In this document: piece by piece, positions 935 through 64,000 of the stretch
How positions within the stretch are numbered: position 1 is the first letter of the stretch
Layout of the letters: each line of letters starts with the position of its first letter
NCBI RefSeq assembly: GCF_037975245.1
Contig: NC_092579.1
Span: 21,272,666-21,336,665 of the forward strand
Source: Apostichopus japonicus
Taxonomy: Eukaryota; Echinodermata; Holothuroidea; Aspidochirotida; Stichopodidae
DNA: 64,000 nt
Direction of reading: 5' to 3'
The notes under the pieces: model-generated
What the model saw: only the letters and a program-made list of their open reading frames with translations
Told to the model about the DNA's origin: nothing
Database searches by the model: none
Made by a program: the position numbers and the translations under genes

Positions 935-5459
<4,525 letters not shown>

Positions 5460-5494
5460 GGTTAAATAGAGTATTGGTTATTCAATTTCAAACT
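5460..5494 (-). other. Tektin 5' UTR, part carried on the first coding exon
   Basis: On the minus strand a pyrimidine-rich 3' splice site (ttgtttccacag) ends at 5495. This leaves 35 nt of 5' UTR before the tektin ATG at 5459-5457. The transcript should therefore begin in a non-coding exon upstream. Confidence 0.6.
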
Positions 5495-6400: not shown

Positions 6401-6849
6401 TAAGTTGTACGTACTGTAGGACCTATTTCTTCTATCTAATATGTGCTTGTTCTAATCATTGCACACCGTTCACCCTCACATGCATCACATTATGTGTACA
6501 TCTTCACCAGTAGCAACCATTCTGTCCTTTTGTTGATAGTTGTCATAACGATGACCTCATTATGAATATTTAGTACCATATCACACAGAAACGGCTGAAA
6601 AGTATAGTCTACGAAACTTCGGCCATTTTGTTTGAATTTTAGCTGCTCACACGAATAACCCACGCGGACTCAGCGTTAGCGTTTATTTATTGTGTATGTA
6701 CGTTGTTTCTGTGAATAATTTCTGTGTGTACTGTTACTTGGTCCTCCGGGTTTGATACTGTTCCACTACCGTCCTGGGATCATCTTCATTATTCCACTTC
6801 TTCCGCAACAAGGGTTTCTTCAGAACTAACACTCGCATATATTAAAAAC
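6400..6849. promoter_or_regulatory. Divergent promoter region and ALYREF 5' UTR
   Basis: This stretch lies between the candidate tektin first exon (minus strand) and the ALYREF start codon (plus strand), so both genes probably start here. No convincing TATA box is seen. Around 6600-6680 the sequence is richer in CpG than its surroundings and contains ggccattttg, which resembles a YY1-type CCAT core; this is a plausible ALYREF start region. A half-site like that of ciliary RFX X-boxes (gtagcaac, near 6510) is present, but no full symmetric X-box is visible. Placement of start sites is inference. Confidence 0.45.
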
Positions 6850-9800
6850 ATGGGTGACAAAATTGATCAAAGTTTAGATGATATTATCAAGCAGGACAGG
6901 GCCGGCAAACGCGGAAGGGGACGTGGACGCGGTGGTCGCGGTAGAGGTGGCGGTAATAGAGGTGGTGGATTTCAAACCCGCAATAGGGGTGGAAGAGGTG
7001 GTGGTGGCCCTGTGAGACGAGGCAGAGGGTCCTCTAGAGGAAGACAAACACCCTACAGTAGAGTAAGTGTTATTTTACGATAGGCCTAGACTAGAGTGAA
7101 ATGAAGTTATGCCCTAACGTAAACAATAATAACACTAGGCTAGGCCTAGCCTACTTTAGCCTGGCTTAACTTAACCTAACATTAAGCTTATTGAATAGTA
7201 GTATGCTTAGGCTAACCCCGCATTATATTTATTTGTACTACTAACACAACTAGGCCTAGGGTGGTATGTAGGCTTGCCTAAATCCCAAAGTTGGGCTTTG
7301 CCTAACGTTAGGCCATACAAACAAATCATGCTCTGTCCCTAGGCCTATACCAAAATGTCCCATACCAAAACGTCCCCACTTTTGGTCAAAACGTCCCCGT
7401 TGGTCAAAGCGTCCCCGTCAGTTGTGAATATATATTAATTTTAAGTTATAATTTGGCTAAGTCATCGGCATGCAAGTTGGATTACAAGCGCGAAATAAAT
7501 CATGAAGGACTAGGCCTATATCACAGGGTGTTTTGACTGCGGGGACGTTATAGGCCTCAGCTGGATTGGTTCCAGTGCCATTCCGCCATATGTACAGTTG
7601 TGTTCCATCTAGGTTGACACGACTGTCCGGACACTTTCCGACGTTTTCTGAAACCCGGACATTTTTGTTCATTTTACTCCAACAATATTCACTCTTAATC
7701 CGGACGGAACATGTGGTTTACTGACTAATTTTTCACACCAGATTAATCGATCTTCTCAGTTTGTTACTATGAAAGTTACAATGGTGGTGTGTTCGATTCT
7801 GTCCAATAAACCAGATGCTTTAGCCCTACTCAAAGTAACAATACAGTAAGGATAATAGAGGCAAGAACCCTTTCATTTCAATAAAACGTCATGTGTCGGA
7901 TAATCCGGACCCTTAAAGGCATTGAAGACTAGCCACAAACCCTGTGCCCTGCTCTGAAAAAGTTAACTTGTGGCTTCAAAATGCAGAGAGTAATGAAACG
8001 TGATACCTTGTTATCTTTTATCTAGACCTAAGATGTCCACGCTGGTATGTACACTGTGTTGTGGGCATTAACAGTAGCTGCATGTATTGACTGTACACTA
8101 GTGTCTAATTACCGACATTAGCAAGCTGTGTGTGTATTTTCTGGGATCAATGGGGGTGTTTTACACTTACATTCAAAACTAGGTCAGATTACCGGCATGA
8201 GACGTTTCTTTGTGCGCGAGTCTTCACATCCTTGACTATGTTTCCTTCACATCCTTGACTATGCTAGACTATGTTTCTGTTCAAAAGCAATTTTAGAGGC
8301 AGTTCTAATACCAGATTGCAAAACGTCTGAATCTTTCCGATAATCCGGACGGAATAAACAGTACAGTGATGTACTTCTGCTACGAACAAAATCAAAGGTG
8401 ATACAAGTTTCAACAACTTGTGAATGTCACAGTGAACTGGGTACCAAGTGAGATGGCCTAGCCGATGCATGGGGTGGATGGCATAAATTATGGCAATTGA
8501 AAAGAAAAAAGAAATTTTCACTGTGAAATGTCCAAAAGTATTCTGAAATGAAAAATATAGGTTTTTCCATTAAATTAAAGGTTCATCACAGAGAAATTTG
8601 CTATGAATGTAGCTGGTTTGTGTTACCAAACTCATGTTATGATTTATAACAGCCATATGAATGGTTCTTAATTTTTCCTCAGCCCACAGAGCTCCCTGAC
8701 CAGTGGGAACATGATATGTATAATGACAGCAAAGTTGGAGGAGGAGGTCTTATCAGTGGAGGTGGAGGAGGAGGAGGAGGTGGACAGTTACTACAAGGGA
8801 AACTACTAGTCTCAAATTTAGATTTTGGTGTGTCAGATGCAGATATTCAGGTTTGTGATTGTCTGGGGTGATCAATTTGCTGTAATAATCTTTGCCTTTG
8901 CAGGGAATAATAAAGTCCTCAGGTTTGTGTAGCATTGATGAAGGCTCTGACCTTGTGACTATAACATATGTCTTATAATGTAATAAGGTTCCTATGTCAA
9001 CATCTGCTTACACAACGTTGGCCTATATAACAGATATGACCATTTTGCTAAGCACTGGATACATTATTTGCTGTTTTGGGAGATTTACCTGCAGGCTGTC
9101 TAAATGTTGATCATCATCTAGTACTACTCTTCCAATATGTATGTTATTGTCAATTGCAGCCATCTCTCCTGTGTGTCATTCCTAATTCAATCCTTTTCCA
9201 TTTCATTAACATGTTTCATGTACAATAATAAGGCTCTTAGAAATAACAATATACCCAATTTTACACTTATCAATCTTCCATATAGCTGCTTCAGTTCTTT
9301 TGTGGATTTGTATGAGAGGAAACATTGTTTCCATAACTAGTTCCTTAAAGCTCCCTTTTTGGGGTTTTTGTCCCTTGAAAAGTGTTGAACTTGAAAACTG
9401 CATACAATTTTATTATTGCCCTGTAATTTTACATCATTCAGAATCAAAAGGAATAAAGACAAACATGTTTAGTGTTGCAATTACATTAATGTGCACCTCT
9501 TCCAACAAAGCATTCCCATCGTTGCAGATTTGACCTTTTCCAGAAATCATGGCATCTTATTATTATTCTTCCCACAGGAGCTATTTACTGACTTTGGAGA
9601 ATTAGTTAAAGCAGCTGTGCACTACGACAGATCAGGCCGGAGCCTGGGAACAGCAGACGTTGTGTTTAGGAGAAAAGCGGATGCCATCAAAGCAATGAAA
9701 CAGTACCACAAAGTCCCATTAGATGGTAAGTGACTTTTTGTAATTTACACAATTGATTGAAAGGCTGTCCTTTGATGTGAGATGTCTGAACTTCTGCTAT

Positions 9801-55117: not shown

Positions 55118-58100
55118 CTACTTAGAATAGCAAGATGATACGGTACTGTCTCTCTTGACATACGGATTCTCTGGCTGCATCATGTACTCGGACAACGGCC
55201 GGCTCAGCGACGGGAGTTTCCGGCGCGGCAGGGTTTGGTCTTGATGCTTGGAAGAGGAGGAGAGCCTGTGCCTGATCAAAGACCGGCGTTTGCGCCGATC
55301 CACTCGGTTTCGGATAGGAACCATGGATTTCAGCTGGTCGATCTGTTCCTTACCTTCTTCGATGATGTCGATGGCGGGGCAAGACGTGGACAGCTTATAG
55401 CGTTGGAACCAATTCTGGTAATCGCTGGCCCTTCTCTTCCCCAGCACGGACGAGGTCCTGTTGTTCAACGTGTGGTGCTTGCTGTCTCCCCCCTTCGACA
55501 GGTACGGGAACGTGAAGGCCTGGGTCTTCGGTAGGACCGTCTCCTTCGGAGACATGTCGTAAGCCGGGTCCGTAAAGAAGTAGAGCGCATTCTGAGCGGA
55601 GACGTTGGAAGCGTGGAGAGGGAGGCTGCTGCGTTTGTTGAAATGTGCCTCACTGACGTCGGAGGAGACACTGAACATGGAATGTCGGAAGCGCGCCGGC
55701 ATGCTGCTCTGGGACAGACGAAGATGAGCGTTTGCGTAGTGGAGGTCATCCTCGTGCGTCATCCTTGTACCGGGAATCGGTGGCAAGGAACGGGTCGGCC
55801 TCCGTGAGAGATCACGGTGCGGAGTATCACCCCCCTCGGACAGACTCGGGCTAAAAGTGGCATAAATGTGTCTCAGTTTCCAGATGCGACATTGCTTTTT
55901 CGAGCAAAAGAACAGCGCCAGGAGCAGCAGACAAGCGGAGAATGCCACATAGATCGTCAGGCACATCAAGATGTTTGAATAATCTTTCACCTCAAAGCGG
56001 ATTGCCTCCGATGCATGACCCCATGGCGTCTTGACGGTACAGACGATCACGGAGCTTTCGGATTTTTCGATGACCCACTTGATGTCTTCGGTAGATTCCA
56101 ACTCGGGGTCGGCATCCCGCCCTGGTGAGTTACAATAGAGATTATAGGAATATGGAACGGGTAACACGTTAATACGGATTGTTTTATCGTCGATCTGCTG
56201 CCCTCTCAGCGGGAGAAGGAAATTGCACGACACTCCACCGTCGGTAGTTGCATTACAGTTCAAACGTTGATCGGTCCTTTCCGTTCTTGTCTCGCGGAAG
56301 AGTGTCGAGTCGTTGCCACTCAGACATGTGACGCAGGCTTCGTTCGTCTCACTAAACGACCGGCTGAAACAGCTAACGGAGGATGTGTTCTGCTGTACGT
56401 TAACAAACACTTCCAGGGATTTTTCCTCGCCCCAAGCACAGTGATAATAACCGCTACCACTACTACTCGAGACTGAAAAACGTGCGGCGGTGTAATCGCA
56501 AGCTTCCTCCTCCCTTACGCTCCTATTATGTGTGGTGTAATTAATCTCTCCAGCGTCCTCTTTCTCCGGTCTATACTTTAATAAGACAACATCCTGCAGA
56601 GGAACAATAAAAAAGAAGAGAGGGATTTAACTTCAGAAAAAGAAATCATAAATTCATATTCAGGCGGTGCATGATGCAAACAGGCTGAGCTTGGAACTCA
56701 AACATTGATTTTTTTGTCAGAAATGAAAAGAATGACCTGTACTGCATCATCCAAGTGTATTCATGATAGATGACGTGTATTTCAGCTTTACTCTAACACT
56801 CAAACCAGTCTATACAGTGGCGGAGCTAGGGGTATTGGTCAGGGGGGGCGAGAATGGTCTGTAGGGGTGCTTTCAACCTTATCTAAGCGGAGCGCCACCA
56901 CACTGGTTGGCGCGGAGCGTACAGACATTTTTTGAGTAAAGATACTCCCTAGATCACCGGAAATGACCCTTTCTGGGCCTTGCTAATTTGCAGATAAGCG
57001 GGGAAAAAATAGGTGTCATCGCCATTTTGTTAGAAAATTACACCAACAAAATGTGACAAATGTCAATAGGTATTTGAGAGCGCAATAAAAAAGTCAATAA
57101 TCGTGAATAAGTAAAAAGTGGTAAAAAGCTGAAAAGGGCGCCAGCAGTCCATTTCAGTCCATCAGGGGGGCATCCCCTCTGACTGTATGGATGCTCCGCC
57201 ACTGAGTCTATAGCTACACTGGTTGGAAAGATACACATTTTGCAAACTGTTTGGTTTTTGGGGGGGGGGGCACAATCCACCCAGAAAAGGGTTGGAGAGT
57301 TAATACATTACAATTGAAAAACCAACTGCATCCCTCCGTTCCGTATTTGTAAGTTTAATGCTGTGTGTAGTGTAATTGCAAAGGTATAAGTGTAAATTGT
57401 GAGATCTAACATTATAACTGTTTTTTTCCATCTGATTTGTAGATAATATGCAATGTTTATAGAGCATATCCAAATGAGATCCAACGTTATAATTGTGATC
57501 TACATTTGTTGACGTACCGTTGTACAGTACCATTTTAGTAAACATGCGATGTAATAGAAAAAAACAGTTTGGGATTCAGCAAAACGGTACGAATGAAGAA
57601 ACAAAATGTCCTGCTATAGTTTTTGCCATCATAAATGATATTTAGCCATAACTATAAGCGAGCCTAGAAATATCACAATTTTTAACCACTGGATATTTAA
57701 GAAAATGCGAGAGCTTAAAGTATCAACTGACTTGGAAAATCATGTTCCCACTGGCAATTTCTTGTATTACAAAAACAGGTAAGTAATACTGCCCAATACT
57801 ATTCTTTGCTGAACAATAATAAGCAGTAATAATACAGAGCTTATGTTATAGGTACAGAAATCATGCCAATTATTTGACTGATAATTATTATTAATTAACA
57901 GACTTAACATATGTCTATGTTTATACTTTATGTCTACCTGCAGAAAAATGCCAGTGCCCTTTTTCTTCTACTGGCAAAACTGAGAAATCTACTGGCATTT
58001 AGCCAGCAAATACAGTAGCCTGAATTTTGAGGCCTGGTATTGCAGCAACATACAGTAATAAAGCTGGATACTCAGGTAAAATTATTATGACCATAAAATA

Positions 58101-60531
58101 TGTTTCTTCCGTAATTCAGTTAATGATTCAACGAACATGACCATATTTTATGCATAGTTCATCAACAATGGACTAAATCAGTCTTCAAGAATTTCTCTTT
58201 TTAAATTGTGTCTAGGAATGAAAGAAAGTCAAACAGTTTTTGATATAATTGTGAGGATCAATAACAATTATAAAAAAATGCACTGTCACTAGGGCAATGT
58301 TAATATAGCTAATTGAAAGGTTATTATCCATGTTGGTCTAAAATCTAGCATAAAGAGGAAAGAAACTTGATAATAAAACTCTTCAGTAAACAAAAATAGC
58401 TGTCAAAACTGACACCATGTGCATTTATATTTTTCTAAGGTCTTTAATCTGAGAATAATTATTCTTTACTGATGAAAAAAAAAATCAAGAGGCAATATTG
58501 ATGTTCGGGGAAAAGTTCTAGTTTTTTATCATAAGCAGATCACGTTACCCACATGTGACAGAACATTACCTCATATTAACAACCTTTAAGTATAAGGCTG
58601 ATATATCGACACCCTTAATAAATATTCATTGCTGAAATAACATGAATAACGATAGTGTCAATCAAGGCATCCTATTGGTGTATCTGTACATAGAGACATG
58701 TCGTAGATTGTGATTGGTTAATTCTAACAGACAGAATTGTCATTGTTTGAATATTCATGACAACTGCTCCTCGTGTACTTGCACTGTATTTACTTTCAGA
58801 AGACAAAAAGAAATTTCAAAGATGCCATATATGACTCCAACAGTGTAAGATGTAAGGACCAAACAAGCACAAATGGATTAATTAAACACAGATCTATTAA
58901 GAGCAGCTAAAACTGACATTGCTTTTAACAGACCTCTGGTATTCAAACTACTTTGCTTGGTGACCCCAATTATCACATTCAATTTTTTTTCGGATTTCAG
59001 GGTGTTAAGTCACAAAATGGAGTTATACTGTGCAGCATTTAAAGTAATTTGAGTCCATGTATTTTTTTCCTGCAAACATTGGAAATTATTTTCTTTTGAA
59101 TTTTTGGTGGACCTCCAAAACTGTTTTGGCCAACCCAAAAAAGGGTCTACGACCCCGACTTTGAACAATGGGGCTGTAGACAACAGACTAATGCTATTCA
59201 TTATTCTCCACAGCCATGATTACATATTATAAACCATTAGATATATTCTGACAATTTATTCTAATCAAAAGCCTTAACTTATGATTATATTAATTTTACC
59301 AGAACTTAGTCTATTAAATCTCTATCATTGCTATTGGTATTTACAAAAAGTTGATATATATAATCATGGGGGGGGTTCTTTTGGAAGATGTTTTGTTGTC
59401 ATGATCAAGGGGGAGAGGGGGAGGCTGTATTATAAGCTGTTATTCAACTAACGGTAGATGGGATTCTTGAAACATGTTGCACTCTAGGTTCTGTGTTTCT
59501 GATTTGACACCATACTATAATTCATTAGTGTTATTTTAACTGTTTAGATGAGACGGTATTGTGCTGAAGATGAGTTCCCCTACAAAGAAGTTGAAGAGGC
59601 GAAGAGTCCATGGAAATGGTTCTCCCTAATCCACTCAAGATTGGGCTGGGTGGAAAATGTACAAATGTACCATGAGGAGGGGTCTGATCTAAGGGAACGG
59701 AATATACTGCAATGGTTGGGCTAGTTTCCTGTTTAATTGTTACATCACAAACAAAATTCAAAGTTAATGTTTAATCCTTCTTGGGTGGCAACAGTATAGG
59801 CTGAATCTCTTGATCAATATGGGCTTACTTGACTTTATACTAACTTACAGATTCCTACAGCTAATAGCGGTTTGCTGATGACAATATTATCGACATGGAA
59901 ATTTCAATGAGTGAATTAACATGGCGATGATGGCACAAGCAAACAGCAATTTGGGCCATAGGTGGGGTCACTTTATTTAACGAGTAGCCATGACTATACT
60001 TTTGTAAAAAAGACAGTGAGTGCATGGACTGGCTGGATTTTAGCTCTTGGTCAAGCTGTTAATAAAATATAGGGGAATGGTATTGGGTTAACTTAAATCC
60101 TCAAAAATGCTTTCCCCACAATATCCAATCTGATGAGTGATACACTTGCCTACAGGTAATGAATATGAAATTCTTTTTATAGGTAATATGGGGAAAGAAA
60201 ACAGCTACAAGAATTAAGGCATATCCTGCTTGAAACAACACACTTGAAAAGATCGCTAATGCTTTGACACCGAAGCCCTGTGCCAAAAGTTTGCCTTGAT
60301 ATTTTAATAAATAGAACAAATATAATCTTGACAAGAAAAAAACAACAAGAAAAAAAGGCAGAAAATCTTGTTCACCTGTGTGGAATTACGATCACTGAAG
60401 AGGCAATAAAATGTCTGATTTTTGCCGTCCCGAACGTTTTCAGACGGAACCATCAGATGAACTTCTGCTTGTGAAACACGGATGATAAAAACTGCCAAAC
60501 AGGCGATGATACCCAAAACGTACGATGCCAT
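55118..60531 (-). CDS. Single-pass Ig-like receptor with long cytoplasmic tail, two coding exons
   Basis: Coding exons are 60531-60376 and 56593-55118, joined in phase 0 across GT/AG: 1632 nt, 543 aa plus stop. Residues 1-22 form a signal peptide (ASYVLGIIACLAVFIIRVSQA). Residues 23 to about 120 look like one V-type Ig fold, with Cys43 in TFYCLF and Cys104 in the hallmark SGYYHCAW. A second cysteine-bearing region follows, with Cys175 and Cys237 (VIVCTVKTPWG) possibly bridging another Ig-like fold. Residues 260-282 are the membrane helix (ILMCLTIYVAFSACLLLLAL). The 261-residue tail is basic and Ser-rich, with a class I SH3 motif RSLPPIP (320-326) and a YxN motif (Tyr338). An in-frame ATG at 60585 would add 18 residues and weaken the signal peptide, so I chose 60531. 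I do not recognise an orthologue. A cell-surface recognition or adhesion receptor is inferred. Confidence 0.8.
56594..60375 (-). other. Intron of the Ig-like receptor gene
   Basis: The 3.8-kb intron has donor CAG|GTGAAC and acceptor ctctgcag. It contains the complete hAT-like MITE near its 3' end and a diverged repeat at about 57950-58045 that resembles 27465-27530 (actggcaaa ... agccagtaaata). No coding exon was found within it, but small extra exons cannot be excluded. Confidence 0.6.
56815..57204 (+). mobile_element. Complete hAT-like MITE with 8-bp target duplication
   Basis: Terminal inverted repeats cagtggcggagc and gctccgccactg bound a 390-bp non-coding element. Identical 8-bp flanks agtctata lie at 56807-56814 and 57205-57212. 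An 8-bp duplication and CAG...CTG ends fit the hAT superfamily. Two truncated relatives lie at 29255-29607 and 35705-35967. Confidence 0.88.
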
Positions 60532-60585
60532 GATGTAGCGGTTTGATATAGCTTCAGATATAGAATTGCTTTGAGGACTAAACAT

Positions 60586-62387: not shown

Positions 62388-64000
62388 GCATTACCAAAAC
62401 CATGTCCGTTTTCTCCACTTGATCCTCCAATTTTAATAGTGTGTTACCAAAACCACGTGCAGTTCTCTCCACTTGATCCTCCGAGTTTAACAGCGTGTTA
62501 CCAAAACCACGTACAGTTCTCTCCACTTGATCCTCCGAGTTTAATAGCGTGTAACCAAACCATATACAGTTCTCTCCACTTGACCTCCGATTTTATTAGC
62601 GTGTTACCAAACCATATACAGTTTTCTCCACTTGATCTCCGATTTTATTAGCGTGTTACCAAAACCACATACAGTTCTCTCCACTTGATCCTCCGAGTTT
62701 GATAGCGTGTAACCAAACCATATACAGTTCTCTCCACTTGACCTCCGATTTTATTAGCGTGTTACCAAACCATATACAGTTTTCTCCACTTGATCTCCGA
62801 GTTTATTAGCGTGTTACCAAAACCATGTATAGTTCTTTTCACTTGGATCTTCTGATTTTATAGCGTGTTACCATAACCACAAACGTTTCTCTCCACTTGA
62901 TCCTCCAAGTTTAATAGCGTGTTACCAAAACCACATACAGTTCTCTCCACTTGATCCTCCGAGTTTAATAGCGTGTTACCAAACCATATACAGTTTTCTC
63001 CACTTGATCTCCGAGTTTATTAGCGTGTTACCAAAACCATGTATAGTTCTTTTCACTTGGATCTTCTGATTTTATAGCGTGTTACCATAACCACATACGT
63101 TTCTCTCCACCTGATCCTCCGAGTTTAATAGCGTGTTACCAAAACCATGTACAGTTCTCTCCACTTGATCCTCCGAGTTTAATAGCGTGTGACCAAACCA
63201 TATACAGTCCTCTCCACTTGACCTCCGATTTTATTAGCGTGTTACCAAACCATATACAGTTCTCTCCACTTGACCTCCGAATTTATTAGCGTGTTACCAA
63301 ACCATATACAGTTTTCTCCACTTGATCTCCGAGTTTATTAGCGTGTTACCAAAACCATGTATAGTTCTTTTCACTTGGATCTTCTGATTTTATAGCGTGT
63401 TACCATAACCACATACGTTTCTCTCCACTTGATCCTCCGAGTTTAATAGCGTGTTACCAAAACCACATACAGTTCTCTCCACTTGATCCTCCGAGTTTAA
63501 TAGCGTGTGACCAAACCATATACAGTTCTCTCCACTTGATCTCCGAGTTTATTAGCGTGTTACCAAAACCATGTATAGTTCTTTTCACTTGGATCTTCTG
63601 ATTTTATAGCGTGTTACCATAACCACATACGTTTCTCTCCACTTGATCCTCCGAGTTTAATAGCGTGTTACCAAAACCACATACAGTTCTCTCCACTTGA
63701 CCTCCGATTTTATTAGCGTGTGACCAAACCATATACAGTTCTCTCCACTTGACCTCCGATTTTATTAGCGTGTTACCAAACCATATACAGTTCTCTCCAC
63801 TTGACCTCCGATTTTATTAGCGTGTTACCAAACCATATACAGTTTTCTCCACTTGATCTCCGAGTTTATTAGCGTGTTACCAAAACCATGTATAGTTCTT
63901 TTCACTTGGATCTTCTGATTTTATAGCGTGTTACCATAACCACAAACGTTTCTCTCCACTTGATCCTCCAAGTTTAATAGCGTGTTACCAAAACCACATA
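62388..64000 (+). repeat. Satellite array of 52-54 bp units with higher-order pattern, runs off the window
   Basis: About 31 units of the form gtgttaccaaaaccatatac / agttctctccacttgatc / ctccgagtttaatagc are visible. Five variant types recur in a regular order (see findings). Frames inside it come from the repeat and are not treated as genes. The array continues past the right edge. Confidence 0.95.

Follow-up and report, generated by a model that had tools for sequence, protein, structure and literature searches.

Among the described molecules that come closest to the gene analysed here, KirrelL is an Ig-domain transmembrane protein needed for skeletogenic cell fusion in echinoderms; its gene, kirrelL, is intronless in all echinoderms examined, and an origin by retrotransposition has been suggested (PMC8903837). 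Because kirrelL is intronless, Ig receptors without introns are already known in kind from this phylum. Compared by description, our receptor and KirrelL are both Ig-domain transmembrane proteins, and KirrelL shares its intronless condition with a set of single-exon receptors that we found elsewhere in the same genome, whereas the gene under study has an intron. Vertebrate ITIM/ITSM receptors, nectin and CD80-like V-C2 proteins offer a second comparison, with a layout of V plus C2-set domains and a tyrosine-bearing tail, but our gene matches none of these models and carries no ITIM. A third is with class I receptors of the gp130 type, in which an Ig domain is followed by a four-cysteine domain and which also share YxxQ, the STAT3 site of gp130; in contrast to them, our receptor gives no profile match and has neither WSXWS nor a membrane-proximal Box1.

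Gene model of the receptor

The window, that is, the whole stretch of DNA that was analysed, comprises 64,000 nucleotides of Apostichopus japonicus (C19:21272666-21336665) and holds on its minus strand a predicted receptor gene with the following features:

60531-60376, minus strand: exon 1, 156 nt, residues 1-52, with a signal-peptide-like start and V-type Ig strands A-B including C43
60375-56594, minus strand: phase-0 GT-AG intron of 3.8 kb, between both Ig cysteines
56593-55118, minus strand: exon 2, residues 53-543 plus stop, 491 open codons, with the remainder of domain 1, the cysteine-rich ectodomain, the transmembrane helix and the entire tail
56396-56593, minus strand: second half of the V-type Ig domain, residues 53-118, with SGYYHC
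55976-56395, minus strand: cysteine-rich region predicted to be all-beta, residues 119-258
55907-55972, minus strand: transmembrane helix, about residues 260-281, placed by hydropathy and family comparison
55121-55906, minus strand: cytoplasmic tail, about residues 282-543, with RSLPPIP, YANA, YQNW and YMMQ

When joined as predicted, with CAG/GTGAAC at the exon 1 donor and TTGTTCCTCTGCAG/GATG at the exon 2 acceptor (the slash marks the junction), the two exons give a single open frame of 543 aa from the ATG at 60531. The start codon is uncertain, as a second in-frame ATG lies upstream at 60585 with no stop before the one at 60531. An upstream exon is required, since exon 2 has no methionine ahead of the membrane helix, and exon 1 supplies the first Ig cysteine and a hydrophobic, signal-peptide-like start (residues 1-22), which an earlier, sequence-only reading of this DNA had called a signal peptide and which indeed reads as one. 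Against a profile of the N-terminal half of domain 1 of the single-exon set, exon 1 obtained the top single-domain score among all ORFs of the window (11.2 bits, E 0.023), and the family HMM matched the joined protein continuously from residue 6 to residue 103, across the junction at 52/53, with 17 bits, whereas none of 500 shuffles exceeded 5.7. There is good indirect evidence that exons 1 and 2 belong together through the predicted splice. We infer, furthermore, that chance does not account for a 491-codon frame together with a signal-peptide-like start, Ig pattern and membrane helix that follow in the correct order; codon usage is uninformative here, all six frames of the gene stretch scoring alike.

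Much of what the sequence-only reading had described is borne out. The intron does interrupt the predicted Ig domain between its two cysteines (C43 in exon 1, C104 in exon 2), one membrane helix (~260-281) precedes a 261-residue tail that stands wholly on one exon, and this tail is rich in Ser (15%) and Arg (10%). SGYYHCAW, N38QT, N49ST, RSLPPIP, YMMQ and YANA are all present, and five N-x-S/T sites besides N38QT and N49ST are found in the ectodomain.

The intron also houses a hAT-type MITE (56815-57204) that has many copies in the genome, with a 12-bp TIR (CAGTGGCGGAGC) and an 8-bp target duplication (AGTCTATA); pieces of the window near 28.9-29.7 kb and 35.8-36.0 kb resemble it. Elsewhere in the window we noted two exons of a tektin gene, at 2287-2820 and 4680-5477 on the minus strand (Pfam Tektin, E 1e-25 and 2e-38, respectively), a satellite-like tandem array with a 54-bp unit and a 214-bp higher-order period, which runs from 62391 to the window end at 64000, and an RGG-rich frame at 6715-7080 on the plus strand, which has no Pfam match and presumably is an exon of an ALYREF-type mRNA export factor.

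A single-exon V-C2-C2 receptor set in the same genome

A V-set scan of the A. japonicus genome, in which 21 long single-exon genes were read, yielded at least 21 long single-exon Ig receptors (loci L013-L034 and L055), a count that is a lower bound, as the scan scored the top candidates only. These genes lie on C21 (5.16-5.26 Mb and 19.08/19.83 Mb), C13, C15 (13.20-13.22 Mb), C16 (28.66 Mb), C18 (5.80 Mb) and C11, and several of them are clustered, at 5.16-5.26 Mb of C21, on C13 and on C15. Nearly all of their coding sequence is on one exon, and the 21 have a common layout of signal peptide, V-set domain, C2-set_2-like domain with an extra cysteine pair, C2 domain, stalk, transmembrane helix and a tail of 48 to 461 residues. 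Their second domain (D2) bears cysteines in the A, B, F and G strands and in several members matches Pfam C2-set_2, while the third (D3) is the C2 domain. In the tails, ITIM/ITSM-like motifs number 23 versus 7.6 expected (0 of 2000 shuffles) and are present in 11 of the 21; the dipeptide YA is found 21 times versus 6.5 expected (0 of 2000 shuffles), LPPxP 3 times versus 0.1 and PPxP 10 times versus 1.6 (0 of 2000 shuffles), and YAN occurs in three tails versus 0.4 expected. With such motif counts, the tails of this set resemble docking sites at which SH2 and SH3 proteins could bind. A literature search, which had most subscription journals outside its reach, found no paper on the larger single-exon set in sea cucumbers.

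A multi-exon relative, L056 (C12:24513000-24518500), has several V domains together with the same C2-type domain, and one of these V domains is split by an intron at a position that differs from that of the window gene; it is possible that this locus was the source of the single-exon set. Dense clusters of C2-set_2 frames at C8:4.69-4.93 Mb (about 340 aa) and C16:4.9-5.06 Mb were also seen, suggesting further expanded Ig families.

The ectodomain and the place of the window gene

The assignment of residues ~24-110 to a predicted V-type Ig domain is supported. C43 and Y102HC104 provide the B- and F-strand cysteines and the Y-x-C of IgSF V-set domains, and hhalign of the ectodomain against the same-genome V-set family scored 43, with shuffles at <=24 (n=60), in an alignment of 92% probability that covers residues 24-145 and spans the exon junction. 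The strand-C Trp is missing from domain 1, no Pfam model, V-set included, matches anywhere in the 543-aa protein, a PDB sequence search gave no match for the receptor, and domain 1 alone reached a sub-threshold match with the CD3-epsilon Ig model (E 0.03). The picture of a V-type Ig receptor with a tail holds for domain 1, the membrane helix and the layout, with the profile running across the junction, but the ectodomain extends beyond a single V domain. Region 119-258, about 140 residues that were absent from the first description, contains C127, C139, C142, C165, C175, C206 and C237 and is predicted to be all-beta. In the hhalign alignment C127 and C142 fall on the conserved A- and B-strand cysteines of family D2, and C206-W225-C237 resemble, by eye, a shortened C2 domain. 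When the region was compared on its own with the family D2/D3 profiles, it scored no better than shuffles, and a profile in which a large gap was left free for D2 and D3 did not rise above them either. Structure prediction, which the sequence-only reading had proposed for residues 23-259, covered the exon-2 pieces 53-259 and 116-259 with single-sequence AlphaFold without relatives; both models were weak (pLDDT 43 and 51), speaking neither for nor against an Ig fold, and fold searches with the weak 116-259 model returned beta proteins of various unrelated kinds, with Foldseek TM-scores of about 0.2-0.4 at the top and a VIA Z of <=7.0. Such poor models and mixed matches are uninformative as to whether residues 119-258 could form a new fold.

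As for the relation to the single-exon set, domain 1 reached a score of 35.6 with the family domain 1, compared with 14.1 when set against 20 further V-set domains of this genome; most leave-one-out controls for this comparison landed on the expected side. Window gene and set have in common a signal peptide, a V-type first domain, a cysteine-rich ectodomain, a transmembrane helix and a long Tyr-bearing tail, and LPPxP and YAN are shared by the window tail and some tails of the set. They differ in that the window gene has an intron inside domain 1, while the coding regions of the set are in one exon, in that its transmembrane helix starts at residue 260 rather than at 316-414, and in that it lacks both a sequence match for 119-258 and an ITIM, which is itself not universal in the set. 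On these sequence comparisons, the balance tips slightly toward the window gene being a diverged, shortened outlier of the V-C2-C2 set. By sequence the gene is nonetheless the orphan it had been called, with a single copy and no Pfam or PDB match, as the paralogue search of the genome, queried with the whole window protein and with portions of it at tblastn sensitivity, retrieved only the gene itself. Separate profile searches of ectodomain and tail gave a divided answer: the ectodomain matches the V-set family of the same genome (43 versus <=24), but the tail has no alignable partner among 20 family tails (best pairwise z 1.8). The statement that no known family could be recognised is in turn half right, in that databases give no match but domain 1 resembles at least 21 receptors of the same layout. 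What is weakened is the claim that this gene is the strongest candidate for new biology, because the genome holds receptors of the same layout, to whose V domain the first domain of the window gene is much closer than to other V-sets, and because intronless echinoderm Ig receptors have been described (PMC8903837). Most likely, the window gene would not represent a new kind of molecule.

Alternatively, and with a distinctly smaller though real chance, the gene could encode an independent IgSF receptor or adhesion molecule that shares only the V fold with the set, this fold being followed by a small beta domain of a novel type. Such a reading is consistent with domain 1 being the sole part that matches, 119-258 and the tail matching nothing, and with a gene structure that differs from that of the single-exon set; it is at odds with domain 1 scoring 21 units higher for the set than for other V-sets, with an alignment that reaches both D2 cysteines, and with the shared layout. 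It is unlikely, in our estimate, that the gene is instead a set member on its way to decay, with Ig strands lost and function gone. By eye, each Ig-like unit is indeed shorter than its counterpart in the set, domain 1 being without an E-strand stretch and D2 and D3 without their middle strands, but 491 stop-free codons, intact splice sites, a signal-peptide-like start and a transmembrane helix argue against decay. A gp130-like class I cytokine receptor, with an Ig domain, a four-cysteine domain, a short second half and a JAK/STAT tail with YMMQ, is very improbable: the C127-x11-C139 and C165-x9-C175 spacing resembles the class I N-domain, but hhalign against a profile built on six human class I receptor sequences scored within shuffles, WSXWS (nearest WGHAS), C-x-W, a membrane-proximal Box1 and a Pfam match are all lacking, and a separate gp130-like exon, L012 (PVTNVECQSRDMLAFWCTWQPGED), exists elsewhere in the genome, so that an assignment made from cysteine spacing is mostly refuted, without profile support. 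L012 itself (C2:4457158-4457256; PVTNVECQSRDMLAFWCTWQ) is a gp130-like class I exon with a partial IL6Ra-bind match (19 bits, E 0.78); a PF06328 profile search of the genome found nothing.

The cytoplasmic tail and proposed function

We give about an even chance to the explanation that we consider best, namely that the gene encodes a single-copy type I IgSF membrane receptor, a diverged outlier of the V-C2-C2 set, engaged in Tyr signalling or adhesion. Beyond the layout and domain 1, we infer its receptor function from sequence. The signalling-type tail that had been proposed is plausible, yet the motifs listed for it are, taken alone, close to chance: in shuffled tails, YxxQ (YMMQ) has p~0.33 and a class I SH3 or PxxPx[RK] motif p~0.34. 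A class I SH3 motif and YxN appear jointly in ~6% of shuffled window tails, LPPIP in 0.8%, and a second YxN, Y444QN (YQNW), stands beside YANA, giving 2 versus 0.35 expected (p~0.04). Some ~40 residues separate RSLPPIP from the membrane. The ITIM/ITSM-like motif [ILVST]xYxx[ILV] has no occurrence in the window tail.

Because the tail has LPPIP and YANA and no ITIM, a Tyr signal driven by ligand or contact and passed through Grb2-type adaptors would be the most probable mechanism. The Ig part would bind either a soluble ligand or a partner displayed by another cell, a Src-type kinase would phosphorylate tail tyrosines, and the pYxN sites (Y338 and Y444), together with the RxxPxxP site, might recruit Grb2-type SH2/SH3 adaptors by putative binding, which could then bring in Ras/ERK or actin machinery. 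If the ITIM-bearing cousins, about half of the set, inhibit, the ITIM-less window receptor would rather activate or anchor. A broader version, which we hold to be doubtful though less so than gene decay, is that the window gene, with its intron and without an ITIM, would be the outlier of a paired-receptor-like recognition system specific to echinoderms, comprising more than 20 mostly single-exon Ig receptors whose tails bear ITIM-like, LPPxP and YxN motifs, and having an origin separate from that of its vertebrate counterparts.

Taken alone, the window gene adds one further lineage-specific Ig receptor. Its main importance is as a pointer to a large set of single-exon Ig receptors, apparently little described, whose tails are strongly enriched in ITIM-like motifs, and, if this set acts in coelomocytes, it would show how an echinoderm built both activating and inhibitory recognition at the cell surface.
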